Virus record (IMG/VR): IMGVR_UViG_3300043392_000004
Span: 1-22,989 of that record
Origin: a virus
Reading direction: 5' to 3' (one strand)
DNA: 22,989 bases
The translations under genes were made by a program, and so were the position numbers. Positions 2,750 through 22,989 of the stretch are shown piece after piece. Numbering within the stretch: position 1 is the stretch's first letter; each line of letters opens with the position of its first letter. Under the pieces are notes generated by a model. The model did not search any database. It worked only from the letters and a program-made list of their open reading frames with translations, and was not told where the DNA came from.

Positions 2750-4291
2750 ATGGCAGAACAACTACTCACTACCACGATTCAAGCTCCGGGTTTCCAAGGC
2801 TTAAACCTTCAAGATTCGTCTGTGAGTTTGGATAATGGATACGCTACAGTGGCTCAGAACTGTGTCATTGACAAGTTTGGGCGTATCGGGGCACGTAAGG
2901 GCTGGGCACCAGCTCATAGTGCCTTAGCTGCTGCCACAGGTGCCTATATCAAAGCTATCCATGAACTGATTGCCAACGATGGTACCAGTTACATCATAGC
3001 AGCAGGCAACAATAAGATCTTTAAGCTTGTTGGAACTACCCTTACCGAGTTAACTTATGGTGGGGGTGGAGTAGCTCCTACGATCTCCGCTAGTAACTGG
3101 CAGATGGCTCCTTTGAATGGTCGTCTGTATCTGTATCAAGTAGGTCATGATCCTCTGGTGTTCGACCCTGCTGTCAGTACTACTCAATATCGACGTATCT
3201 CAGAAGCTACAGGCTATTTAGGCACCGTACAGAATTCTAACTGTGTAATCAGTGCTTATGGACGTACGTGGTCAGCTAATACTTCAGTAGACAAGAATAC
3301 TATCCAATTCTCTGACTTAAAGGCAGGTCATGTACTGAATACAGGCACTTCCGGTACTCTAGACGTATCTCAAATCTGGCCTAACGGTGCGGACGAGATT
3401 ATCGCTTTAGCAGCCCATAACGGTTATCTGATGATCTTTGGTCGTAGACAGATTCTGATCTATCAAGGTGCTCGTGATCCTTCTACGATGTCCTTGGCAG
3501 ACACTATCAGCGGTATTGGCTGCGTAGCTCGTGACTCTGTAGTGGTTACTGGTGGCGATGTGGTGTTCTTGTCCGATACAGGTGTACGTTCTATCATGCG
3601 TACCATTCAAGAGAAGTCTGCTCCTATGCGAGAGCTTAGCTTGAACGTTAAAGATGATCTGATTGCAGATGTGTTGACAGAACAAGCTGAAGATATTCGT
3701 GCTGTGTACTCAGATAAGGATGCCTTCTATCTGTTGTCTTTACCAACTACAAATACAGTGTATTGTTTCGATATGCGTAATACGCTTCAGAATGGTGCAG
3801 CTAGGACAACTATCTGGAATAATATCACCCCTAGAGCTTTCATGTACACCCGTAATAAGGATTTATTGCTTGGACAAGAAAGTTTTATTGGGAAATACGA
3901 AAATAACCTTGACAACACTGCCTCATATCGGTTAAAATATTACACCAACTACTTTGATTTCGGTTCTCCTACAGCTATTAAGATTCTGAAGAAACTGAAC
4001 TTTACATTTGTAGGTGGTAATGGTGCTGATCTGAGTGTTAAGTACGGTTTTGATTATGGTAATAACTATCTGTCCAGAACCATCTCTTTAGGTAACGTTA
4101 ACATTGCTGAGTACGGTGTTGCAGAGTATAACATCGGAGAATACACAGCAGGTGTTGTTTTCGACAACCAGAAGATCAATGCCTCGGGTTCAGGTAACGT
4201 TTTACAAGTCGGGTTAGAAGCTGAGATTAGTGGCTTTGAACTCTCTCTACAAAAGCTGGATTGCTACGTTAAAGCAGGAAGAATTAAATAA
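2750..4291 (+). CDS. Tail tubular protein B-like nozzle/stabilisation protein
   Basis: A 513-aa beta-rich protein. The N-terminal GFQGLNLQDSSVSLDNGYAT segment followed by AQNCVIDKFGRIGARKGW is the classic opening of phage stabilisation / nozzle proteins, where most of the chain folds as a propeller-like tail-tip ring. It is shorter than T7 gp12 (about 794 aa), a size common in P22-like and marine podoviruses. It lies directly after the adaptor, its usual neighbour. Its stop overlaps the next ATG by one base (TAATG). No enzyme motif is seen. It probably builds the distal tail tube and contacts fibres. Confidence 0.78.
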   Translation: MAEQLLTTTIQAPGFQGLNLQDSSVSLDNGYATVAQNCVIDKFGRIGARKGWAPAHSALAAATGAYIKAIHELIANDGTSYIIAAGNNKIFKLVGTTLTELTYGGGGVAPTISASNWQMAPLNGRLYLYQVGHDPLVFDPAVSTTQYRRISEATGYLGTVQNSNCVISAYGRTWSANTSVDKNTIQFSDLKAGHVLNTGTSGTLDVSQIWPNGADEIIALAAHNGYLMIFGRRQILIYQGARDPSTMSLADTISGIGCVARDSVVVTGGDVVFLSDTGVRSIMRTIQEKSAPMRELSLNVKDDLIADVLTEQAEDIRAVYSDKDAFYLLSLPTTNTVYCFDMRNTLQNGAARTTIWNNITPRAFMYTRNKDLLLGQESFIGKYENNLDNTASYRLKYYTNYFDFGSPTAIKILKKLNFTFVGGNGADLSVKYGFDYGNNYLSRTISLGNVNIAEYGVAEYNIGEYTAGVVFDNQKINASGSGNVLQVGLEAEISGFELSLQKLDCYVKAGRIK

Positions 4292-4830
4292 TGAGTAACT
4301 TGGCTCTTTTATACCCGACTGAAAGTAAGCTATGTCCTCATTGCTCTACAGTAAAACTATTTACTGAATTCAATAATAACAAAGCTACTAAGGACGGTAA
4401 GCAAAGACTTTGCCGTCCTTGTGATAATGAACGGCTTAAGTCTAATCGCAACCGTCGAATAGATCAGTATAAGAAGTATGAACAAGACTATCGGAAAGCG
4501 AGAGCTAACGATCTTGAGTACAGACTTCGGAATTTGTTAAACGCTTCCCGGGCGAGGGCTAGAAATAAAGATAGAGAGCATGAAATAACTCTTCAAGATC
4601 TTTATGACTTGTATCCTATAGACAATAAGTGTCCAGTTTTTGGTTTTGAATTAGAATGGAATAGTGCAGGTTTTAGAGAAACAAGTCCTTCAATAGATAG
4701 GATTGATTCTTCTAAAGGATACACAAAAGACAATATTCAAATTATTTCGTGGAAAGCTAACAGATTGAAAGCTTACGCGACAGTGGAAGATTTAGAAGCT
4801 GTAATAGCTTTCATGAAACAAGGAGATTAA
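4291..4830 (+). CDS. HNH-type homing endonuclease inserted in the tail operon
   Basis: A 179-aa nuclease. It has an N-terminal zinc-finger-like pair (C15-P-H-C18 and C41-R-P-C44), a basic linker with Tyr/Arg repeats, C114-P-V-F, and a terminal D136-R-I-D139...GY-T...N148...N157-R-L-K block. This is the usual end of phage HNH / His-Me finger endonucleases of the DRIDxxxGY type. Its sequence is visibly A/T-richer and less GCT/GGT-biased than its structural neighbours, consistent with a recent mobile insertion. It lies between two virion genes, overlaps the upstream stop by one base and supplies the AGGAGAT ribosome site for the next gene. Activity and target are not known. Confidence 0.82.
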   Translation: MSNLALLYPTESKLCPHCSTVKLFTEFNNNKATKDGKQRLCRPCDNERLKSNRNRRIDQYKKYEQDYRKARANDLEYRLRNLLNASRARARNKDREHEITLQDLYDLYPIDNKCPVFGFELEWNSAGFRETSPSIDRIDSSKGYTKDNIQIISWKANRLKAYATVEDLEAVIAFMKQGD

Positions 4831-5064: not shown

Positions 5065-6288
5065 ATGGCATGGCAAGATGATTTATGGGCTGCTGCTACG
5101 AGCCCTCAAGGCATTAGCGCAGGTATTAATACTTTGGGTACGTTGTATGCAGCTAACCAAGCCTCCAATGCTCAGCAGAACGTAGCCGCTGCTAACACTG
5201 CTGCTGCTCAACAGGCTGCTGAAGCTGCTGCATTCCGTCCCGTGGGCGTCACTACTCGCTTTGGTACTTCTGGTTTCCAGTATGATGATCAAGGTCGATT
5301 GACCGGAGCTGGCTACCAAGTTGCTCCCGATGTTGCTGCTCAGCGTGAAGCATTGATGGGCTTGTCTGGTAGTTCCTTGGCTCAGGCTCAGGCTGCTCAA
5401 GGCTTGATGCCTCAGTACAGTCAAGCTGCTCAAGGTTTGTTTGGGTTAGGCCAACAGTTCCTGCCTACATCGACTGCTTATAACGCTTCTCCTGAAGCTA
5501 TGGCATATGCTAATCAGCTTCGTGGTATTGCAGGTCAGGCTATGCCTGCCAGCTACGACACCACAGCAGCTGCTCAGCAGTATATACAACAGCAGCAAGG
5601 TTTGCTGGCTCCTCAGCGTGAACAGCAACTGGCTCAGATCCGTAATAACCTGCAACAGACAGGCCGTGCTGGTTTGGCTACAGGTGCTACAGCCGCTGGT
5701 GGCATGGGTGCTACTAACCCTGAAATGGCTGCCTACTATAACTCTATCGCTCAGCAAGATGCTACTCTGGCAGCTAATGCTCAGCAACAAGCTCGTGCTA
5801 ACCTGTTGCAGGACATTAACCTTGGCTCTAGCTTGGGCGGTCAGGCATTGCAGACTCAGCAGGCTGCTGAAGAGATTGCTCGTCAGCGTATGTTGTCTAA
5901 CCTGCAGACAGGTACTGGCTTGTTCGGCACATCCGCTGGTTTGATGGGTCAAGGCTACGGCTTACAGTCTCAGGCTCTGTCTCCTTGGACTTCGTACTTG
6001 GGCGGTGCTCAGACGCTGGAAGGCTTGGGTCAACAAGCTCTTACAACTGGTACTGGCTTAGGTTCCTCTATCGCTGCCGCTGGTGCTCAACAGGGTAATC
6101 TGTTAAGCTCTGCTGCTGCTCGTAATGCAGCTTTGCAATCTCAAGCGGCAGGCCTGCAAAGTGCTGCAACGACAGGTGCTATCAAAGGTCTCCAAGACCC
6201 TATCGCTGCTTTGATTGGTAACTTAGCAGGTAATCCTCAAGGTACTAACCTTACTCAGCAACAGTACGCTATGATTAGCGGCTACTAA
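5065..6288 (+). CDS. Putative internal virion protein, Ala/Gln-rich
   Basis: A 407-aa protein that is extremely rich in Ala, Gln and Gly, with runs such as AAANTAAAQQAAEAAA and repeated LGQQ/LQTG segments throughout, and no Cys. Position after the tail-tube genes and before two more large Ala/Gln-rich proteins fits the T7 gp14-15-16 ejection-protein cluster; T7 gp14 is much shorter (196 aa). The chain is probably long helical and may help form the DNA-translocation channel during infection. There is no enzymatic motif. The ribosome site is weak: a purine stretch (AAGGCGGGG) about 13 bases upstream. Family assignment rests on order and composition rather than a diagnostic motif. Confidence 0.62.
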   Translation: MAWQDDLWAAATSPQGISAGINTLGTLYAANQASNAQQNVAAANTAAAQQAAEAAAFRPVGVTTRFGTSGFQYDDQGRLTGAGYQVAPDVAAQREALMGLSGSSLAQAQAAQGLMPQYSQAAQGLFGLGQQFLPTSTAYNASPEAMAYANQLRGIAGQAMPASYDTTAAAQQYIQQQQGLLAPQREQQLAQIRNNLQQTGRAGLATGATAAGGMGATNPEMAAYYNSIAQQDATLAANAQQQARANLLQDINLGSSLGGQALQTQQAAEEIARQRMLSNLQTGTGLFGTSAGLMGQGYGLQSQALSPWTSYLGGAQTLEGLGQQALTTGTGLGSSIAAAGAQQGNLLSSAAARNAALQSQAAGLQSAATTGAIKGLQDPIAALIGNLAGNPQGTNLTQQQYAMISGY

Positions 6289-6298
6289 AAGGATACAT

Positions 6299-7528
6299 AT
6301 GGCTACTCCAAGTTTATTTGGTATGTTGGGTGACGAAGCAGCAATGCAGCGTCAACTCGATGAACAACGTGCTCAAGCATTTGCACAGCAGACACAAGAG
6401 CAGCGTTTAGCTGGTATGGGTTATCAGGCTGGTGCAGGCCTTGGACGTGCTGTTGCAGGTATGTTCGGTGCCGATACTACTGATCCTGTTGTCCGTAAGG
6501 CTTCTCAAGTACGTCAGTTGGCTTCTCAGTTTGATACTACTCAGCCTGAGGGCATGATGCAATTTGCACAGGCTGTTCGGGCTCTTGATCCTAACTTGGC
6601 TGTGCAGGCTGCTGAGAAAGCTCAGGGGATGATGAAGACTTCTTCTGAGATCACTAAGAACTTACGTGAACGAGCTGCTGCTGATCCTTTCCAAAAGCTG
6701 CTTGAGTCCGGGAAGTTCTTACCTGCTAGTGTTGCTAAGTACGAACAAACAGGTAATAAGGCTGATCTGGAGTTTGCTGATAAGATTGAGACTAAAGGTG
6801 AATTTGAACGTATCTTAGGTTCTTTGGAACTGCCGCCAGAACAAGAAAGACAAGTTAAGCAACAATGGGTACAGGCTAAGCTCAATCCTGATGCTAATGG
6901 TCTTAAAGGTCTTCAGGCTCAGTTGCTAAAGGCACAGATTGATCAAAAAGAAATGAAGCTTGCGACTGACCGCGAAAAAGCAGAAACAGAGAAATCACAA
7001 GCAGTTTCCAAGCTGAGTAGTACTGAGACTAGTATGGATACTGCTTTGGCTACTGCCGAAAAAGCACTTAAACTCGCTCCTAACAGTTTAGCTGGCGGTG
7101 TTACTCAGGCTGTGTCTGCTTCTATCCCTTGGACTGATTCTAAAGCATTAACTAATCTCGTTAGTTCTTTAAATAGCGAGAAAGCTATCGGGACGCTTGA
7201 AGAACTTAAGAGCCAGAGTCGTACAGGCGCTACAGGTTTCGGTGCTCTAAGCGAGAAAGAACTTGCTTTGATCTTGAACAAGACCCGTGCATTAGATCCT
7301 ACAGATAAGATGTTTAAAGAAAATCTTACAGTGGTTATGGATGGCTGGGGCAAGATTCGTAATCAGGTTCGTGAATCCCGACTTAACTTACAAGGTAAGA
7401 AAAGTGAAGCTGATGCTGAAGCCATGATCAATAAGACAATCGAACACAATAAGTCTAAAGGGGCTATGACTAGGGAACAGGCAGTTCAACTACTGAAATC
7501 TGCTGGTCGTCTCCCCGCTAATTATTAA
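6299..7528 (+). CDS. Putative internal virion protein (second of cluster)
   Basis: A 409-aa mostly helical protein with an AAAGGA ribosome site. The N-terminus is MATPSLFGMLGDEAAMQRQLDE, followed by a Gly-rich GYQAGAGLGRAVAGMFG segment that could insert into a membrane or form a channel. The rest is charged helix (e.g. KAQIDQKEMKLATDREKAET) and ends with AMTREQAVQLLKSAGRLP, the kind of short C-terminal helix seen at the end of some ejection proteins. By order it matches T7 gp15, although it is far shorter (747 aa in T7). An ELPPE pentapeptide at 6827-6841 recurs twice in the next gene. Confidence 0.58.
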   Translation: MATPSLFGMLGDEAAMQRQLDEQRAQAFAQQTQEQRLAGMGYQAGAGLGRAVAGMFGADTTDPVVRKASQVRQLASQFDTTQPEGMMQFAQAVRALDPNLAVQAAEKAQGMMKTSSEITKNLRERAAADPFQKLLESGKFLPASVAKYEQTGNKADLEFADKIETKGEFERILGSLELPPEQERQVKQQWVQAKLNPDANGLKGLQAQLLKAQIDQKEMKLATDREKAETEKSQAVSKLSSTETSMDTALATAEKALKLAPNSLAGGVTQAVSASIPWTDSKALTNLVSSLNSEKAIGTLEELKSQSRTGATGFGALSEKELALILNKTRALDPTDKMFKENLTVVMDGWGKIRNQVRESRLNLQGKKSEADAEAMINKTIEHNKSKGAMTREQAVQLLKSAGRLPANY

Positions 7529-7541
7529 GAAGGTGAAATGA

Positions 7542-9557
7542 ATGGCTGATACAACAGGATACGCAGAAGCTAAGCAACGGTTTGAGAAAGCTAAAGATGC
7601 TTGGGAGAAAGCCCCTGCCACGCTTTCTAATCAAGAACGCCAAAAGCTCTTGAAGGAATACGGAGTAGCTCGCCGGGACACGGCAGAGCGCACTCCTATG
7701 GGTGCTTTGGGCGCCGGTATGCTTAGAACAGCAGGGGACGTAGTCACAGGAATTCCTGATCTTGCTATTGAAGCAGGTAACTGGGCGGCGCGTAAGATCG
7801 GAGGAGAAGGAGTTGGTCAACTGCCTACTCTTGGCGGTCTTTTTCGCCAAGCAACAGGTCAAGCTGAAGGACCTAAGGCTCCTGAGTTAGCTGACTATTA
7901 TAATGCTCCGGGATATGCTGCTGCTGCGTACAGTGTGAGTAGTTTAGCCAAAAAGGGATGGAAAGCTTTTAAAGACAGTCGCTTGACTAAGAAAGCAGAT
8001 GAGCTCCTTGGTGATTTAAACCCCACCGAGCGTAATATGTTCCAGCAATGGATGGTTAAAGGTCAAGGTTCTTCTTCACCTGAAGTTGCAGCAATGATTG
8101 AGAAGGTTAGACAGAACCCTAAGTATGCTGAGTTATTCACAGCTATGGAAGGTGCTGCTGCTAAGGAAGCTTTAAAAGGTATTCGTCCTACAGGTGGTTC
8201 ACAGACTGCTGAAGAAGCTGCTGCAGGTATTGCTCGCTCCGTCCAGAACAAACTGGATGGTGTTAAGAAGGCCCGTCAAGAAGCAGGTAATGATTCATTT
8301 GAGAAGGCTTTTAAGCTAGCTGGCGATGCTCCTTTCGTGAGTACTGATAATACACTAGCCACTATCAATAAACTCAAAGGTCAATACCCTGATAATGCAG
8401 GTGTTCAAGCTTACTTAGATAATTTAGCAAGTAAAATTCCTCCTCGAACTGATAGTATCACCAACACCGTAGTTCCTGAGAAACTCACAGTTCAACGCTT
8501 ACAGGGGTTCTTACATGAGTTTGGTAAGAAAGCTGAAGGCAGTGACTCAGTTGTTACAGGCTTAGGCTTGGATGATATGCGCCGTGTTAACTCTGCTTTG
8601 TTCAGCGGTCTGCGTACTGATTTATCAGATACGTTGAAGACAGCTACTAATCTGAATGAGAAGAAGGCTGTAGGTTCATTGATTCAAGCCCGTGAACAGT
8701 TCCGTAAGGCATCTGAGGAATATGATAATCTGATTGCTCAGGGTGTTCCTAAGTGGCTCCAGAGCAAGAGCATTAATGAAGTATCTTTAGAGGATTTAAC
8801 TAAAGCTTATAAAGATACTAATCCTTCTCAGCGGCAAGTGTTCCGCGATTGGGTAGGTGAAAATCGTGCTGAATCTTTGAAAGCTATCGATAAAGCTGTA
8901 TTTGATGACTTCCTCGCAGGCAGCTACAAGAAGCTACCAGACGGAACTATTGGGTATGATCTTGGTTCCATTGCTGATACGTGGAACACATTGAAAAAAA
9001 CCGATCCTAATAAGGCTGGCCAATTAGCTGATGCGTTGGGGATGAATGCCAATGAGTTTTCACGTAGGATGAAGGACGCTTCTGTCTTTACTCGAAAGAT
9101 TCAAGTTGGCGGTCTCAAAACTGAAGGTGTCCCTATTGCGGGGGATGCTTCAAGGGCTATTACTGCTGCTGTTGGTGCCTCGTCTGCTGGTTATCAAGGT
9201 GCTAAATTAGCTGACCTTGGCCTTGAAGCTGTTAATGAAATCTTCAAAAAGCGAGGGCTGACAGAAGAGCAACTAATGAAAGTCTTGCTGACGGGTGAAG
9301 GCAAACAATTCTTACAGAATGCCGCCATTTCTCCTCAAAGCGCTAAGACTCTTCAGTCTTTAATGACAGTGGAGAATGCTTCCTTACCGGGAACAGTACC
9401 TGCTCTATCTGCCGCTGCTGCTCCTGCTGCTGTGGTTGAGACGCCTTTAGCACCTACTGCTGATATTTTTGAGCTCCCTCCTGAATTTCAACCAGCGGTT
9501 GCGATGCCGGAACAGTCTTTTACTGACAACACCCAATGGGAATTACCACCGGAGTAA
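7542..9557 (+). CDS. Putative internal virion protein (third, largest of cluster)
   Basis: A 671-aa, helix-rich protein. The start is the ATG at 7542; an ATG four bases earlier stops after two codons. A hydrophobic/Ala stretch occurs near residue 120-140 (APGYAAAAYSVSSLAKKGW). Most of the body is charged helix. The C-terminus is Ala/Pro-rich and carries two ELPPE motifs, the second forming the final residues. By order it would correspond to T7 gp16, but I see no lytic transglycosylase or other cell-wall-degrading signature, and it is half the T7 length. A DNA-ejection role is inferred from position. No close family was recognised. Confidence 0.58.
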   Translation: MADTTGYAEAKQRFEKAKDAWEKAPATLSNQERQKLLKEYGVARRDTAERTPMGALGAGMLRTAGDVVTGIPDLAIEAGNWAARKIGGEGVGQLPTLGGLFRQATGQAEGPKAPELADYYNAPGYAAAAYSVSSLAKKGWKAFKDSRLTKKADELLGDLNPTERNMFQQWMVKGQGSSSPEVAAMIEKVRQNPKYAELFTAMEGAAAKEALKGIRPTGGSQTAEEAAAGIARSVQNKLDGVKKARQEAGNDSFEKAFKLAGDAPFVSTDNTLATINKLKGQYPDNAGVQAYLDNLASKIPPRTDSITNTVVPEKLTVQRLQGFLHEFGKKAEGSDSVVTGLGLDDMRRVNSALFSGLRTDLSDTLKTATNLNEKKAVGSLIQAREQFRKASEEYDNLIAQGVPKWLQSKSINEVSLEDLTKAYKDTNPSQRQVFRDWVGENRAESLKAIDKAVFDDFLAGSYKKLPDGTIGYDLGSIADTWNTLKKTDPNKAGQLADALGMNANEFSRRMKDASVFTRKIQVGGLKTEGVPIAGDASRAITAAVGASSAGYQGAKLADLGLEAVNEIFKKRGLTEEQLMKVLLTGEGKQFLQNAAISPQSAKTLQSLMTVENASLPGTVPALSAAAAPAAVVETPLAPTADIFELPPEFQPAVAMPEQSFTDNTQWELPPE

Positions 9558-11415: not shown

Positions 11416-11453
11416 AAGGCCCGTTAGAGTTCATCGCTCTAACGGGCCTTTTT
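11416..11453. terminator. Bidirectional intrinsic terminator between convergent arms
   Basis: Perfect 14-bp inverted repeat (11416-11429 with 11437-11450) around a 7-base loop, with a GGCCCG-rich stem and five Ts on the + strand after the stem. The opposite strand gives a T-rich but weaker tail (TTATTTGTTT). It lies seven bases after the stop of the last left-arm gene and just past the stop of clpP, so it can end both transcripts. Confidence 0.93.
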
Positions 11454-11456
11454 CAT

Positions 11457-12083
11457 TTACTCTACAGTAACTTCCTTCACCTTCTTAGGCTTAGGCGGCT
11501 TGTTCAGCCCATTCAGATACTTGTATCGTCGAAGCATACGCTTTTGAGATTCCTCACTGTCGAACCAAAATTCCTTCCCGTTCTTCAGGTCATCCAATTC
11601 CTTGTCAGTCAAGAACCCCTTATAGGCCTGATCCAGTAACTTGTTGATCTGTCGTGTAGCAAAGTCAGTCTGACCCTTGACGTTAGGTACTGTACCAATA
11701 GAACCGTAGTGAGCAGTATGCAGCATCATCTCTGCGCTGTCCGCAATGTAGCATTCCTGCGCCATACAGGCCAACATAGAGGCTGCGCTGTATGCTGCTC
11801 CGATTACGGTCACTCCAACCTGACCACGACATCCTTTCATAGCTTCGATGATCTGCCAGATAGCATCTGTCCGTCCTCCTGAGCTATTCACCAACATATT
11901 CACGGAATCATTCTCACTACAAGTAGCCAAGCAGTGAATAACATCTCGATAGTTACTAGGAGCTAGGATGTCGTCGTCGATAAAAATGATGTGAGCATGG
12001 CTTTGCTGAGTAATCGTACGAATCAAACCCTTCTGGTCAGGCATCATCATCATGAATTCTTCAATGTTCTCATTTGCTTTCAT
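11457..12083 (-). CDS. clpP: ClpP-like serine protease
   Basis: A 208-aa member of the ClpP/crotonase fold. Visible are an oxyanion loop N67-S-S-G-G70, a catalytic-serine block G95-A-A-Y-S-A-A-S102-M, and the histidine in MLH122TAHYG. The third catalytic acid is not certain from the sequence. The length is close to bacterial ClpP, with a basic, Pro-rich end (PPKPKKVKEV). It lies last in the replication arm, away from capsid genes, so it is not obviously a prohead protease. It could pair with host ClpX/ClpA or act alone. Its ATG overlaps the HNH stop by four bases (ATGA), and its GAGGA ribosome site is inside the HNH gene. Confidence 0.83.
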   Translation of the reverse strand: MKANENIEEFMMMMPDQKGLIRTITQQSHAHIIFIDDDILAPSNYRDVIHCLATCSENDSVNMLVNSSGGRTDAIWQIIEAMKGCRGQVGVTVIGAAYSAASMLACMAQECYIADSAEMMLHTAHYGSIGTVPNVKGQTDFATRQINKLLDQAYKGFLTDKELDDLKNGKEFWFDSEESQKRMLRRYKYLNGLNKPPKPKKVKEVTVE

Positions 12084-12106
12084 TCGCCATCCTCATACTT
12101 AGTTTT
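12080..12106 (-). repeat. Second copy of the phoH 3' end, at the HNH C-terminus
   Basis: Nine codons including the stop match 12525-12551 at 22 of 27 positions. All five differences fall at third codon positions and only the last alters the residue (Glu for Asp). It encodes KTKYEDGE and contains the GAGGA ribosome site and overlapping ATGA start for clpP. Confidence 0.88.
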
Positions 12107-12535
12107 CATTTTATTTCCTTTAGAAATGTTATCAAAGGCAGTTAATACTTGCAGATTCCATGGAACATGAAGACCACATACATTGCTTCCTTGTAAAGGC
12201 ACAATATGATCTACATGATATTTGATTTCAAAAACTTCAGAAGCTGCTTGAGCAAGTTCATAAAATTCTTCAATCTTTTTAAAATCTTCAGCAGTTAACC
12301 AAGGCGGAGTAGCAGAAAGTTTAACTGCTCTACGTTTAGAGTTAATAGCATTACACAGGTGCTTGTTTTCTTTCTGCCAAACACTCATGTATTGTTTACG
12401 TTGCTCTTTCTTTTCTCGGGCATACTGTAAACGAGCTTCTCTATTCCTGTAGTAGTATTCTTTCTGCTTTCTCAGCCTTTCTTCTTTATTTTCTCTGTAG
12501 TATTGGCTACACCTTTGCGCATTATCAGTCGCCAT
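12080..12535 (-). CDS. HNH homing endonuclease between phoH and clpP
   Basis: A 151-aa protein. Start is the ATG at 12535 inside the end of phoH, giving an 11-base overlap; a longer frame to 12619 lies wholly within phoH and is unlikely. The N-terminal third has Tyr/Arg/Glu repeats of the YYxxNxE type (e.g. QYYRENKEERLRKQ), as in many mobile HNH enzymes. The nuclease core is H107-V-D109-H110-IVPLQG, then WNLQV (from W126) and a DN...GNK end. It ends KTKYEDGE, almost the same as the end of PhoH (KTKYEDGD), as marked by the paired repeats. The insertion kept clpP coupled to the operon. The cleavage target is unknown. Confidence 0.85.
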   Translation of the reverse strand: MATDNAQRCSQYYRENKEERLRKQKEYYYRNREARLQYAREKKEQRKQYMSVWQKENKHLCNAINSKRRAVKLSATPPWLTAEDFKKIEEFYELAQAASEVFEIKYHVDHIVPLQGSNVCGLHVPWNLQVLTAFDNISKGNKMKTKYEDGE

Positions 12536-12551
12536 CTTCGTATTTAGTCTT
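12525..12551 (-). repeat. First copy: authentic 3' end of phoH
   Basis: Encodes KTKYEDGD and the stop of PhoH. The internal GATGGCG supplies the HNH start codon. Paired with 12080-12106, the two copies flank the HNH body and look like an insertion-site duplication or co-conversion tract. Confidence 0.88.
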
Positions 12552-19423: not shown

Positions 19424-19808
19424 TTATCCACTCCTCCGGAATAGTTTTATCAGCAAACTTGTAGCCGTTCTTGCGGCACCACATGGCATAGGTTGTCTTA
19501 GATGTCTTACTAATGCGAGCATTAGAGTTACTAAAGACAAAGCGAATGTCAAGCTCAGGATTATGTTTCTTAACTAACAAATGTTTCTGACGATCAGGTG
19601 CTAAGAAGCGTCCCTTAGTCTCCACAATGATCCCGTTAGGGAGCTGGAAGTCAGGTGTGTACACATGAGAGGAAGCAGGTTTGATGTATTTCAGCTTAAC
19701 CTTCTCGTATGTGTATTCAATACCTAACTTATCCAACTGCTCCGCAATACGCTCTTCCAATCCGCTACGAAATCCGTACTTCATTGCAACTTGTTTGGCG
19801 GTTGCCAT
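19416..19808 (-). CDS. T7-type endonuclease I (Holliday junction resolvase)
   Basis: A 130-aa enzyme strikingly close to T7 gp3. Catalytic residues line up with T7: E18 in FRSGLEERIAEQL, D53 in YTPDFQLPNG, E63 and K65 in VETKGRF. The PELDIRFVFS and KFADKTIPEEW blocks also match the T7 protein. The long C-terminal basic tail of T7 gp3 (149 aa) is missing. It cuts branched DNA such as replication and recombination junctions and helps break down the host chromosome. The AAGGAG site lies before the ATG; the gene overlaps the exonuclease by 28 bases, suggesting joint expression. Confidence 0.94.
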   Translation of the reverse strand: MATAKQVAMKYGFRSGLEERIAEQLDKLGIEYTYEKVKLKYIKPASSHVYTPDFQLPNGIIVETKGRFLAPDRQKHLLVKKHNPELDIRFVFSNSNARISKTSKTTYAMWCRKNGYKFADKTIPEEWINE

Positions 19809-20503
19809 AACTCTCCTTCATAACGTCTCAGCCAAAGTAGTTGGCCCTGTTCGATAAAATACTCCATCGAATGTCCAAGTTCTTCATACTTTTCCCACGC
19901 CGCTTGGAGTAGCTCTTCTTTAGTCTTCGAGTCCTTAAGAGCCTTTTCAGCCTTCTTCGGGCCAATACCCTCCAAACCGGGGATGTTGTCCGTTCGATCT
20001 CCAGTGAGAAGCTGAGTGCAAAACGACTTGTACGCTGTAAACTCATCGACATAGTATCTCTCATCCTTTACAGGGTTGTAATGCCATCCCTGAAGCTGAT
20101 CCAAGTCTTTATCGACATGAACGATCCAGCATTTATCCAACATCTTAGTTGACTCGATAGCTACTGTATCATCAGCTTCTTCCCCTACCGTCAGGATAGC
20201 ATCATGGCGCTTGACTAGATGCTCACGTAAGGCATCGTAGTGCTTAGGCTTGACTGCATCCTTACGATTACCTTTATAAGGGACTGTCTTGGCAATGTCA
20301 TAACGGTAGTTAGATTTACCGGTGATCCAAGCTTTGTATTCATCAGCCTTGAGATTCACATAGATAAAGTCTTCTAACCATTCCGTTAATCGTGCTTTAG
20401 CGATGCCAACTGGTTCATCCTCAGCTGAGAAGCCAATTTTGTAAACAAGAAAGTCAGCATCGACAAGAGCAATCTTAGGTTCCTTGTTACAGGATGTCGT
20501 CAT
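19781..20503 (-). CDS. 5'-3' exonuclease, T7 gp6-like (FEN/H3TH family)
   Basis: A 240-aa enzyme from the ATG at 20503; a start at 20533 would add ten residues from inside the SSB gene, and a GTG exists two codons upstream. Metal-site acids are visible: L-V-D15-A-D17 near the N-terminus, GEEADDTVAI in the middle, VHVDKDLDQL, and the TGDRTDNIPGLEGIGPKKA helix-3-turn-helix that binds DNA. In T7 the related enzyme removes primers and degrades host DNA. It overlaps the end of the ssDNA-binding protein gene by 17 bases. Confidence 0.92.
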   Translation of the reverse strand: MTTSCNKEPKIALVDADFLVYKIGFSAEDEPVGIAKARLTEWLEDFIYVNLKADEYKAWITGKSNYRYDIAKTVPYKGNRKDAVKPKHYDALREHLVKRHDAILTVGEEADDTVAIESTKMLDKCWIVHVDKDLDQLQGWHYNPVKDERYYVDEFTAYKSFCTQLLTGDRTDNIPGLEGIGPKKAEKALKDSKTKEELLQAAWEKYEELGHSMEYFIEQGQLLWLRRYEGELWQPPNKLQ

Positions 20504-20900
20504 CGTCACCTTCGGCGTCTTCACCGTAGACAACCAAGTCAGTGACGATCAGCTTACCGATGCTAGGAGCAGCTCCGAACTTAGCTGACATCTTGTGGCG
20601 ATAGCTACCAACCAGAGCAGTTACCTTAGTGCCGTTACCAATCTTCTCGATAGCAACTGCATTGCCTTCTTCGTCCACAGGCTCGAACACGAACTTAGAC
20701 TTACCAACAATGTAGTTACCCATTGTGTCTTTGTTCTTGATCACAATACCTTGGCCCTTCAGAGCCTCACAAGCCTTGTCAGAGAGCATACCGAGTGTGC
20801 ATTCATACTTGGTGTTGTCCTCGTTGAATTTCTTGTTATGTTCCTTCATCCAGTTAGCCCAGAAGAGTTGACCTGCGATTTTGACTGGTTTGTTATCCAT
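20487..20900 (-). CDS. Single-stranded DNA-binding protein with acidic tail
   Basis: A 137-aa OB-fold-like protein. The body has alternating strands with aromatic residues (LFWANWMKEHNKKF, KSKFVFEPVDEEGN, VTALVGSYRHKMSAKFGAAP) and ends in a strongly acidic stretch with a hydrophobic tip (GEDAEGDDDDIL), the hallmark by which gp2.5-like proteins contact DNA polymerase and helicase. It is shorter than T7 gp2.5 (232 aa), so it may be a different SSB subfamily. An AGGA lies nine bases before the ATG. It is the first large gene behind the promoter, suiting early need. Confidence 0.82.
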   Translation of the reverse strand: MDNKPVKIAGQLFWANWMKEHNKKFNEDNTKYECTLGMLSDKACEALKGQGIVIKNKDTMGNYIVGKSKFVFEPVDEEGNAVAIEKIGNGTKVTALVGSYRHKMSAKFGAAPSIGKLIVTDLVVYGEDAEGDDDDIL

Positions 20901-20954: not shown

Positions 20955-21039
20955 TGGTACGCCTAACCTGACTCGAACAGGTACGCTTTTCAGCGGGAGA
21001 TTTTAAGTCTCCTGTGTCTACCAATTTCACCATAGGCGC
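20955..21039 (-). tRNA. tRNA-Leu (anticodon UAA)
   Basis: An 85-base type II tRNA including an encoded CCA end. Acceptor stem GCGCCTA pairs with TAGGCGT; the anticodon stem GGAGA/TCTCC holds loop CTTAAAA, giving anticodon UAA (21003-21005). The variable arm has a CGCT/AGCG stem and the T arm contains TTCGAGT. It lies in the leader region between the 49-aa gene and SSB and must be cut from a shared transcript. A short 5-bp hairpin lies just after it at 20931-20946. Confidence 0.95.
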
Positions 21040-21048
21040 TAGTGTGTT

Positions 21049-21198
21049 TTATTCAGCCTTAGGAGCTTCTTTCTTGTCCTGCAACTGGAACTGCTCTACC
21101 AGCTTCTGATGCAAAGGGAAAGCACCGGACTCTGTAGGCAGTTGACCGATAACACGGACGATGAAAGCTGCTTCGTTAGGTTCGAGATTGAAAGTCAT
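21049..21198 (-). CDS. 49-aa hypothetical protein, first gene behind the promoter
   Basis: Small soluble protein (MTFNLEPNEAAFIVRVIGQL start, then PTESGAFPLHQKLVEQFQLQ and a Lys/Glu end). Such NLxxxEAxFIxxxxGxLPT proteins recur as small ORFs in tailed phages, from memory, with no known function. It has an AAAGGAA ribosome site six bases from the ATG and begins about 25 bases from the predicted transcription start. It would be the most strongly expressed protein of the SSB operon. It ends ten bases before the tRNA. Confidence 0.75.
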   Translation of the reverse strand: MTFNLEPNEAAFIVRVIGQLPTESGAFPLHQKLVEQFQLQDKKEAPKAE

Positions 21199-21230
21199 TT
21201 AAGTTCCTTTACTGTTTGTTGATGTACATT

Positions 21231-21259
21231 ATTGTATCCTACCTTTAACGTCCTGTCAA
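21231..21259 (-). promoter_or_regulatory. Near-consensus sigma70 promoter for the SSB-to-clpP operon
   Basis: On the minus strand, a perfect -35 TTGACA (21254-21259), a 17-base spacer and -10 TACAAT (21231-21236, one mismatch to TATAAT). The expected start is near 21224, within an ATGTACAT palindrome (21222-21229) that could be an operator. The TGA of the -35 is also the stop of the upstream HNH gene. It would serve host RNA polymerase. Confidence 0.87.
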
Positions 21260-21660
21260 GGTTTGTTACAATTATTTTCTTTCCATTGCCGCACCCACTT
21301 ATACGCTGACCATCCATACTCTTTACTCAATTCTGTGGGAGAGCACTGTGTCTCCTTCCACTTCTTAAAAGCTTCGGTATGGATATATGAATATCGTTCC
21401 TTATTTGTTTTGATTGCGTGTTCGTGTCCTGATATACATTCAAGATGTTCGATGTTCTGGCAAGCACGATTCCCGCACAAGTGGTTAATCTCGTAGCCTT
21501 CTGGAATTTCTCCTCTCCGTGCCCTCCAGATAAACCTATGGAACATCTCAAGTGTATCGCCCCAGCGTTTACGAAAATAACCATCTTGATTCAGCTTATG
21601 TGAAAGCGGAATATAACAGCCATCCTCTGTCGTAACAAAAACAAGCGGTTTAGTGTACAT
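21256..21660 (-). CDS. HNH endonuclease inserted after DNA polymerase
   Basis: A 134-aa HNH_3-type nuclease. The core is H41-RFIWRARRG, then GYEIN59-H60-LC62-GNRAC67-QNIEHLE, with the downstream GHEHAIKTN, and a helix-turn-helix-like C-terminus (SPTELSKEYGWSAYKWVRQW) that probably recognises DNA. Such enzymes often sit in or beside phage DNA polymerase genes as selfish elements. The ATG overlaps the polymerase stop by 11 bases (ATGTACACTAA). Its own stop lies in the -35 box of the next promoter. It may also be a neutral or host-excluding homing gene; activity is not shown. Confidence 0.88.
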   Translation of the reverse strand: MYTKPLVFVTTEDGCYIPLSHKLNQDGYFRKRWGDTLEMFHRFIWRARRGEIPEGYEINHLCGNRACQNIEHLECISGHEHAIKTNKERYSYIHTEAFKKWKETQCSPTELSKEYGWSAYKWVRQWKENNCNKP

Positions 21661-22989
21661 CGGCCCAAGTCCTTCCTATATGTCCTTCAGCGCCTACTGG
21701 ACACCTGAAGTTAAGTTTTTCACCAGCTTCTTTAGCTGAAGCGACCACAATATCCACGATCTGTTGTGCATCTTTTTCGTAACCTTCGATGCAAACTTCA
21801 TCATGGACAAAAGCCAGTAGCTTGTAGTCTATCTTAGCAGCTTTTAGATTGGCTGTCAAGCAGATAATCCACTGTTTCGCAATGATAGCTCCTGCTGATT
21901 GCAGTAAACTATTCAGAGCGGCGTGCTCAGATCGAACCCAAACTTTTCGGCCATCCAAAGCAGGCACAAAACCTTTTGCAGCAATCTTATCAACCTTAGC
22001 CTTTAGCTTCTTTAAAGCAGGTGTGTTGTTCAAAAAGTTGTCAATCAGTTTAGCCCCCTGTTTAGCCGAGCCTCCAACAGTAGTCCCTACTTTAGCTGCC
22101 CCTGCACCATACAGCACGCTATATGTCAATGTCTTACTTAAGTTCCTTGCATCTTTATGCTCCTGTTTATCTTCTTTTGCTGTCCCCATCGGAACAAGAC
22201 CAAAGGCTTGTGTATTCTTCCAGTGTACATCACCTTCCAGTAGTTCTCGCTGCCACTCAGAATCTTGCATATAGTGCGCTAGACACCTCAGCTCAATACC
22301 TGATAAGTCACAGCCGATCAAGACACGATCCTCTTCAACAGTCCAGCAAGCCCTACACTCAGCTCCATAAATAGAGGACGTATTCGGAATCTGCGCTAAA
22401 TTTGGACTTGAATGCGTACAACGACCGGTAACAGCACCGTTGGTTATAACTTTCCCGTGAACCCTTCCGTCCTTACCAACAGCTTCCATCCATGACTCGA
22501 TCTGGCTGATACGCTTGTTAAGCATCAGATATTCAGCAATGATCTGAGCCTCTGGAATCTTGATACCTGCCAGAACAGTCTCGTCAATCTTCGGAATACC
22601 TGTCTCGGTAAACTCCTTAGGCTTCCACCCAAGTTCCTTTAATCGTTCTCCGATCTGTTGTCGTGATCCGGGGTTGAAAGTAACCACGCTGTCCTTGAGT
22701 CTCTTTCCTGTTTTGTCAGAGTATCGCTCAACAGTGACAGGTGGCCATCTCTGTTGCATTCGCTCATATATTCCTGCCACTTTTGACTTGATGTCAGTAA
22801 GTAAACAGGTTGTATAGATTTGGTCAAGTTTAAACCCATTCCTCTCTTGCTCTGCAATGATGGCAGCAACACTGTGTTCAAGTTCCAACGACTCAAGACT
22901 AAACTGTTTCTCATTAAAGTCATTGACCAGTTTGAGATACAGCTTAGCAGTTACTTCCACATCACGTACGCAATACTCATCAAGAAGCC
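21650..22989 (-). CDS. Family A DNA polymerase, C-terminal part (cut by window edge)
   Basis: The frame stays open to the last base, so the start lies outside the window; the in-frame GTG at 22960 is not the real start. The first visible residues LLDEYCVRDVEVT are the third exonuclease motif (YxxxD) of a 3'-5' proofreading domain. Polymerase motifs follow: A, GCDLSGIELRCLAHYM; B, R-NLS-K-TLT-Y-SVL-YG with a Tyr (22121-22123) at the position equal to E. coli F762; C, FVHDEV. It ends RTWADVH. Its motifs match the T7 gp5 class closely. It would copy the phage genome with the SSB encoded downstream. Confidence 0.95.
   Translation of the reverse strand, partial: LLDEYCVRDVEVTAKLYLKLVNDFNEKQFSLESLELEHSVAAIIAEQERNGFKLDQIYTTCLLTDIKSKVAGIYERMQQRWPPVTVERYSDKTGKRLKDSVVTFNPGSRQQIGERLKELGWKPKEFTETGIPKIDETVLAGIKIPEAQIIAEYLMLNKRISQIESWMEAVGKDGRVHGKVITNGAVTGRCTHSSPNLAQIPNTSSIYGAECRACWTVEEDRVLIGCDLSGIELRCLAHYMQDSEWQRELLEGDVHWKNTQAFGLVPMGTAKEDKQEHKDARNLSKTLTYSVLYGAGAAKVGTTVGGSAKQGAKLIDNFLNNTPALKKLKAKVDKIAAKGFVPALDGRKVWVRSEHAALNSLLQSAGAIIAKQWIICLTANLKAAKIDYKLLAFVHDEVCIEGYEKDAQQIVDIVVASAKEAGEKLNFRCPVGAEGHIGRTWADVH

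Follow-up and report, generated by a model that had tools for sequence, protein, structure and literature searches.

Mobile genes, mostly nucleases, probably enter between the DNA polymerase gene and an existing promoter in a group of uncultured phages

The window, i.e., the whole stretch of DNA that was analysed, has a length of 22,989 nt (positions 1-22,989 of the IMG/VR record IMGVR_UViG_3300043392_000004). All the features described below are on its minus strand unless otherwise stated. The gene order on this strand is DNA polymerase, HNH, promoter, 49-aa ORF, tRNA-Leu(UAA), SSB, exonuclease, T7-type endonuclease I and ThyX, then more genes. The 3' part of a family-A DNA polymerase gene (21650..22960; PF00476, E 3.7e-52; phrog_17, E 2.4e-113), whose reading frame is open up to the window edge, forms the left border of the interval considered here. 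Its end overlaps by 11 nt (GATGTACACTAAA, 21650..21660) the gene of a free-standing HNH_3 endonuclease of 134 aa (21256..21660; PF13392, E 3.4e-14; phrog_6254, E 2.1e-30), the HNH start codon being at 21660 and the polymerase stop codon inside the overlap. The last HNH codons are ..AAC AAA CCT TGA. The first-pass annotation had placed this TGA inside the -35 hexamer of a promoter; the sequence and the ORFs agree, with TTGACA at 21259-21254 and the gene at 21256-21660.

The first gene past the promoter is a 49-aa ORF (21049..21198) having no Pfam or PHROG match, and its homologues occupy the same position in a minority of the relatives. It is followed by tRNA-Leu(UAA) (20955..21039), which begins 192 nt past the -10 hexamer, by the gene of a predicted single-stranded DNA-binding protein (SSB; 20487..20900) and by that of a 5'-3' exonuclease (19781..20533; phrog_107, E 6.7e-65; PF01367, E 2.6e-9, just under its cut-off), the start codon of the latter being uncertain. 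The SSB label (T7 gp2.5 / Enc34 SSB fold) is backed by a structural model and a fold search, with no sequence family behind it in Pfam or PHROG: the AlphaFold2 model has a pLDDT of 81, and the best Foldseek matches in the PDB are Enc34 SSB (E 4.9e-5) and T7 gp2.5 (E 2.1e-4). Against PDB sequences, the SSB profile gave chance-level matches only (best E 0.032) and the HNH protein gave no match. One record matched the SSB upon 50,697 phage records, and none of 31 pattern stretches found in genome contigs was confirmed. A nucleotide search of the region matched 186 records of annotated phages, and the 40 listed among these 186 all cover the tRNA-Leu stretch. A scan of the window with Rfam at gathering scores gave no match, and also missed the tRNA. 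From polymerase to SSB no terminator was listed by the scan, thus read-through from the polymerase is possible. Elsewhere in the window, a 15-pair hairpin (11416-11450) lies between convergent gene blocks and is terminator-like on either strand.

The promoter itself consists of TTGACA (21254..21259) and TACAAT (21231..21236), both retrieved by the promoter scan, the former recurring at the same junction in the relatives. With reference to TTGACA/TATAAT and a spacing of 16-18 nt (sigma-70), it scores 11/12 with a spacer of 17 nt, and its earlier description as near-perfect and 17-nt-spaced is correct. Two sites of 11/12 were found in the 20 kb scanned, one of them being this promoter; the whole window has 2 such sites vs. 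0.48 (sd 0.59) in 40 shuffles. The promoter is thus only mildly unusual within the window alone and its weight comes from the relatives. Control by the host polymerase, also proposed earlier, is plausible: a search of 18 related contigs (34-44 kb, possibly incomplete) gave no phage-type RNA polymerase (PF00940), which was detected in 2 T7-group records upon 2 used as positive control. The promoter is thus likely to be read by host RNA polymerase.

The relatives were collected from IMG/VR with a polymerase query (best 80 of 187 loci) and an SSB query (best 80 of 261 loci). The two overlapping lists give 146 loci (L002-L147), with the polymerase C-terminus in 137 and SSB in 139. Loci having both ends yield 69 distinct polymerase-SSB intervals when the window is counted; only identical sequences were collapsed, the relatives include near-duplicates, and the loci cannot be taken as independent. 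With tblastn at E 1e-3, none of the 146 other loci (best 80 of 187 plus best 80 of 261) matches the window HNH.

A TTGAC-type promoter is located between polymerase and SSB in 55 of the 69 distinct intervals, window included. The -35 is TTGACA in 50 cases and TTGACT in 5, and the spacer has 16 nt (48), 17 nt (5) or 18 nt (2). Sites of at least 11/12 are present in 56/69 intervals vs. 0.47 on average in 30 dinucleotide shuffles, none of which gave more than 2. It must be noticed that the promoter call demanded TTGAC; the conservation of the hexamer is thus partly circular, but neither the shuffles nor the distance to the tRNA is. The 14 intervals without such a promoter are L055, L057, L063, L065, L073, seven of the L026 type (TTGACA..TATCCT, dropped from the count because the site is inside an ORF), and L023 and L024, which carry TCGACA-17-TATAAT in its place. 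tRNA-Leu(UAA) follows the promoter in 54 cases upon 55 and begins 9-14 nt past the -10 in 50 of these 54, which may be taken as independent, if indirect, evidence of a genuine start site. It begins 185-205 nt past the -10 in the other four cases (window, L018, L025 and L040), where a homologue of the 49-aa ORF intervenes. A palindrome, ATGTACAT, had also been noticed in the first pass: it is indeed present at the presumed start point (21222..21229), one base past the -10, but a role as operator is rejected, since it occurs in 1 of the 55 promoters, i.e., that of the window only. By eye, L020 shows a second promoter (12/12) followed by tRNA-Leu inside an apparently broken first tRNA copy, and L022 has behind the tRNA, before SSB, a 170-codon ORF resembling the cysteine-rich nucleases found ahead of the promoter.

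The comparison of HNH-free relatives at the polymerase-SSB junction had been proposed in the first-pass annotation, the absence of any promoter there being the outcome opposed to its reading. The opposite was found. Of the two possibilities it offered, a nuclease landing upstream of an existing promoter is the one that agrees with these relatives, which have the promoter at the same junction. The associated idea, that the nuclease shifted SSB and exonuclease in time with respect to polymerase, is not supported: the promoter separates them with or without insert, and HNH thus explains no separation of SSB from polymerase in time.

What precedes the promoter varies. In 14 of the 55 intervals nothing lies between polymerase and promoter, and the polymerase's own TGA is inside TTGACA (e.g., ..GAAACTCATTGACATT.. 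in L021 and L045). An insert ORF is found between them in 23/55, window included. The insert families comprise Endonuclease_7 (PF02945; Endo VII types A, B and C), DNA_methylase and NUMOD4 + HNH_3, and others have no Pfam match. The other 18/55 have no such insert (L074, whose -35 falls inside the polymerase end, is counted as insert-free), and several of them keep short scars ending on the same TGA: MYTKIFANSC in L136 and L145, whose polymerase ends are 94% identical to that of the window, NNCNSA in L015 and L016, and in L066 an Endo VII-B ORF cut down to 39 codons. The HNH start MYTK thus recurs in the 10-codon scar of L136 and L145, and also in an unrelated Endo VII ORF in L003. The polymerase-SSB interval is thus an exchange slot, filled by unrelated genes in this group of uncultured phages. 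In the slot of L028 and L041, a C5 methyltransferase ORF overlaps an ORF of 228-229 codons on the same strand in another frame, which is possibly a case of overprinting.

Among the 23 inserts, 13 stop on the TGA of the -35, 8 continue across it in a different frame (six Endo VII-C, L025 and L142) and 2 stop just before it (L040 and L146; L040 is counted by its 103-codon ORF, and its 50-codon ORF in another frame ends in the -35). As TTGACA has a TGA in one frame, about one third of the ORFs entering it stop there by chance; 13/23 exceeds this only moderately, on loci that lack independence. It is thus necessary to consider ordinary gene packing, in which gene ends run into the next promoter and TTGACA provides a stop in one frame with no special mechanism. 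Eighteen other strong promoters from 8 relatives point in that direction: with ORFs of at least 40 aa, 2 have an upstream ORF stopping on the -35 TGA, 5 in the spacer, 5 at 3-38 nt upstream, and 6 have none (these promoters come from 8 of 15 records, out of 44 sites, the slot site and one duplicate being left out). Tight packing is a habit of the clade, thus a stop in TTGACA is by itself nothing special. Nevertheless, packing leaves unexplained that unrelated inserts have up to 23 identical nt ahead of TTGACA, that the same families have different ends, and that ends of PhoH and polymerase genes are displaced (see below), and as a full account it is rather unlikely. The unusual point is that exchange has repeatedly put unrelated genes onto the same ends.

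Three kinds of DNA immediately before TTGACA recur with unrelated genes. (i) Class a is polymerase-end-like and is found with polymerase, with the C5 methyltransferase (L041), with Endo VII-C and, less exactly, in L004 and L053; the pattern used missed several polymerase-type ends, which were classed as « other ». (ii) Class b (AATTGTAACAnnnC) is found in 13 intervals, with the window HNH, the C5 methyltransferase of L028, Endo VII-B, a small ORF (L012) and in seven insert-free intervals. (iii) Class c (AGTTG) is found in 9 intervals, with Endo VII-A, Endo VII-B and in five insert-free ones. Conversely, one family may have different ends: b, c and others for Endo VII-B, a and b for the C5 methyltransferase. 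The C-terminal codons of the window HNH (..KENNCNKP, 21260..21282) belong to class b; these 23 nt are identical to the end of the C5 methyltransferase gene in L028, and they also resemble the ends of Endo VII-B genes (L005, L067) and scars.

The shared block AATTGTAACA is A+T-rich and located directly ahead of the -35 in 13 distinct intervals, properties expected of an UP-element-like promoter part that selection maintains and whose coding role is incidental. This is unlikely: polymerase-fused and class c promoters lack the block, thus it is not generally needed, and the identity between L028 and the window extends over 23 nt.

The promoter alleles also differ. The window allele has a 17-nt spacer (GGACGTTAAAGG...) and a class b end, and the GACGTTAA spacers, found in 8 intervals, all accompany class b. 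The four closest polymerase relatives among the best 80 of 187 (L002, L003, L136 and L145) have on the contrary a 16-nt spacer (TTGCC...) and a class c end. The right-hand end has thus been exchanged in one lineage or the other, probably with the promoter allele included and together with an insert. To this extent the idea of a promoter brought by the nuclease stands: the allele probably moved with an insert, but a promoter was already there without any insert. A cassette carrying its promoter along and creating a new start of the SSB operon would fit the window allele (17-nt spacer, GGACGTTAAA), unlike those four relatives and linked to the class b end. It is nonetheless very improbable, because insert-free relatives have the promoter at the same place, and class b ends with the same spacer type occur without insert ORF in L016, L022, L034 and L098. 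Moreover, six loci of IMG/VR match the HNH family, and in three of them (L148, L149 and L150), where the homologue is directly behind a polymerase, no site of at least 10/12 is found from 40 nt before to 260 nt past the gene ends. The strong form, i.e., a wholly new promoter brought by HNH, is largely refuted by the insert-free promoters and these promoterless homologues.

Displaced gene ends were found at two places. In the window, an Endo VII-like nuclease gene (12080..12535; phrog_1035, E 1.6e-17) lies between PhoH and a ClpP-like gene, forming a second slot. Its last codons (TKYEDGE stop, 12080..12106) comprise 24 final nt identical to those that end PhoH in L200, a locus without nuclease at this place, and the present PhoH 3' end (TKYEDGD stop, 12525..12551) is, by sequence comparison, a diverged second copy. 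The nuclease thus ends in the old PhoH 3' end, captured as its C-terminus. The PhoH and ClpP-like genes are less than 60 nt apart in 58/76 loci and have an insert in 18/76, window included; L232 repeats EDGV likewise, and most other inserts of this slot are without a full repeat of the PhoH end. Another Endo VII-like gene (phrog_1035, E 1e-29) is located at 4291-4830 on the plus strand.

The second place is L149, the one contig with a displaced polymerase end behind HNH. Its HNH (847-1278) is 73% identical to that of the window (residues 4-90) and is followed by PLNGEFKYGRSWRETH stop, i.e., a displaced polymerase end of the RETH type (1272-1322), the HNH stop codon being inside this remnant. 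The remnant is identical at 42/51 nt to the polymerase end of L144 vs. 29/51 to L149's own; the second-best place against L144 is precisely L149's own polymerase end (32/51). By eye, the remnant (within 847-1322) also continues, in another frame, into the small ORF that follows. For the window HNH no displaced polymerase end was found, and the polymerase 3' part differs there from the relatives. A polymerase-derived origin of its tail is not recognisable (best 15/24, three shuffles reaching up to 17). The class b end of the window is thus not recognisably an old polymerase end, and tail capture, which the repeats show for PhoH and which is suggested for class a, is not seen for this gene.

The polymerase gene is mosaic. 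Identity was scanned in 60-nt bins for 17 relatives chosen among 58 with enough sequence. Ten RETH-type relatives are 66-98% identical (nt) to the window polymerase up to about codon 180, then 16-75%, and the SSB DNA of RETH-type relatives is 84-91% identical to that of the window. In three Endo VII-B carriers a lasting fall occurs at about codon 365, i.e., about 20 codons before HDE. In ADVH-type relatives identity does not drop in this way. Co-conversion around a cut in the 3' part of the polymerase would produce such a pattern; the indication is indirect, and other recombination would give the same picture. In L079 and L081 the polymerase match (6001-7956) covers 1,956 nt vs. about 1,308 usually, and an inserted segment within the gene is thus suspected.

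In annotated phages, 389 records match the HNH, 68 of them over at least 80% of the protein. Four records were viewed: in Escherichia phage 13a the HNH is inside a polymerase CDS joined from two pieces, in AH67C600_Q5 it is between two polymerase CDSs, and in VSG32 and BUCT788 it is 62 nt behind the annotated polymerase end. Two features of homing endonucleases are found for the window HNH: it has an HNH domain, and it adjoins its presumed target, from which it is absent in the 146 other loci. A location in a group I intron, on the contrary, does not apply, the gene overlapping the last 11 nt of the polymerase gene.

Taken together, these comparisons make it quite probable that an old junction of polymerase, slot and promoter exists in these phages, and that mobile genes enter ahead of the existing promoter and take their ends from the DNA found there. 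The promoter would be of the host sigma-70 type and would serve tRNA-Leu, SSB, exonuclease and what follows them. Where no insert is present, polymerase stops on the TGA inside TTGACA or 14-25 nt ahead of it. Mobile genes, mostly homing-type nucleases, would enter between this stop and the promoter. On the left side, the insert start codon would overlap the polymerase end, thus the insert would be translatable from the polymerase message. On the right side, the insert would be joined to the DNA ahead of the -35, whose codons become its C-terminus and whose TGA is often its stop; the downstream promoter would be left intact and the insertion thus tolerated. As many slot nucleases end on a stop codon belonging to an older promoter, the latter was probably not created by the arrival of a nuclease. 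The occupant in the window is an HNH_3 nuclease, and its relatives are found behind phage polymerase genes or within them. It may be a nuclease of the I-TslI kind. It would be an active homing enzyme cutting polymerase alleles, homing repair would make the slot junctions, and the slot promoter is presumably in use.

In phage T4, the SSB is encoded by gene 32. According to the available part of PMC2988022, free-standing endonuclease genes of T4 embed downstream promoters, e.g., those of gene 32 in segG, which is argued to favour their retention. The likeness is that a nuclease coding region holds the promoter of a downstream replication gene: here the -35 overlaps the HNH stop, and 8 insert ORFs of relatives read through the -35. 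The differences, as far as that part goes, are that T4 has middle and late promoters within the gene whereas a host-type promoter, the -35 of which supplies the stop codon, is found here, and that many unrelated occupants have here the same ends. The HNH is also comparable to the HNH genes of group I introns in T7-like phages (I-TslI and I-PfoP3I, as given in the accessible text of PMC3428280): the protein of Escherichia phage 13a, in the polymerase 3' part, is 51.5% identical, but it is between two polymerase CDS pieces, whereas the window gene is free-standing behind the stop codon. The putative Endo VII-type ORFs (PF02945) in the same slot of the relatives recall F-CphI and the homing nucleases with an Endo VII motif in the available part of PMC6083498.

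Yeast WHO elements, as described in PMC7282813, give FBA1 a new 3' end, and the former one is displaced downstream. The same layout, i.e., a nuclease behind an essential gene, a new 3' end upstream and the old end downstream, is seen for the polymerase of L149 and in the PhoH slot of the window. As far as the WHO description goes, the present case differs in that the displaced PhoH end is fused in frame as the nuclease C-terminus, that the organism is a phage and not a yeast, that the nuclease family is another one, and that the layout is deduced here from sequence. The accessible part of PMC10448857 presents WHO elements as relatives of HO and not as a phage layout, and it locates homing nucleases of phages next to essential genes as well as at boundaries of exchange. 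In fungal mitochondria, mobile ORFs are flanked by inserted and displaced gene ends, the order being an inserted gene end, an endonuclease ORF and the displaced native end (PMC3630166, available part); the atp6 example there is a LAGLIDADG ORF, the setting is mitochondrial, and no promoter junction is described in that part. In the literature consulted (titles and abstract openings, with few subscription papers), no phage case of promoter-supplied stops or of 3'-end capture by a nuclease was found. With reference to these known kinds, the new points are the promoter-supplied stop codons and the captured ends in a phage clade.

A tentative reading, held with a little less than even confidence, is that these phages have a counterpart of WHO. 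Free-standing nuclease genes would substitute a new 3' end for that of an essential gene, and the displaced end would be captured as C-terminus and stop together with the signal of the next gene, i.e., the promoter -35 at polymerase/SSB and the start region at PhoH/ClpP-like; the slots would then be sockets in which nucleases and a methyltransferase interchange. The findings suggest a route by which selfish nucleases settle between essential phage genes without breaking the expression of the next gene, the old end and its signal being reused. If this is true, a simple rule would follow, i.e., the last codons of the nuclease would be the 3' end of the preceding gene in nuclease-free relatives, and these phages would offer a phage system for the homing layout that the available parts of the above papers describe for yeast and fungal mitochondria.
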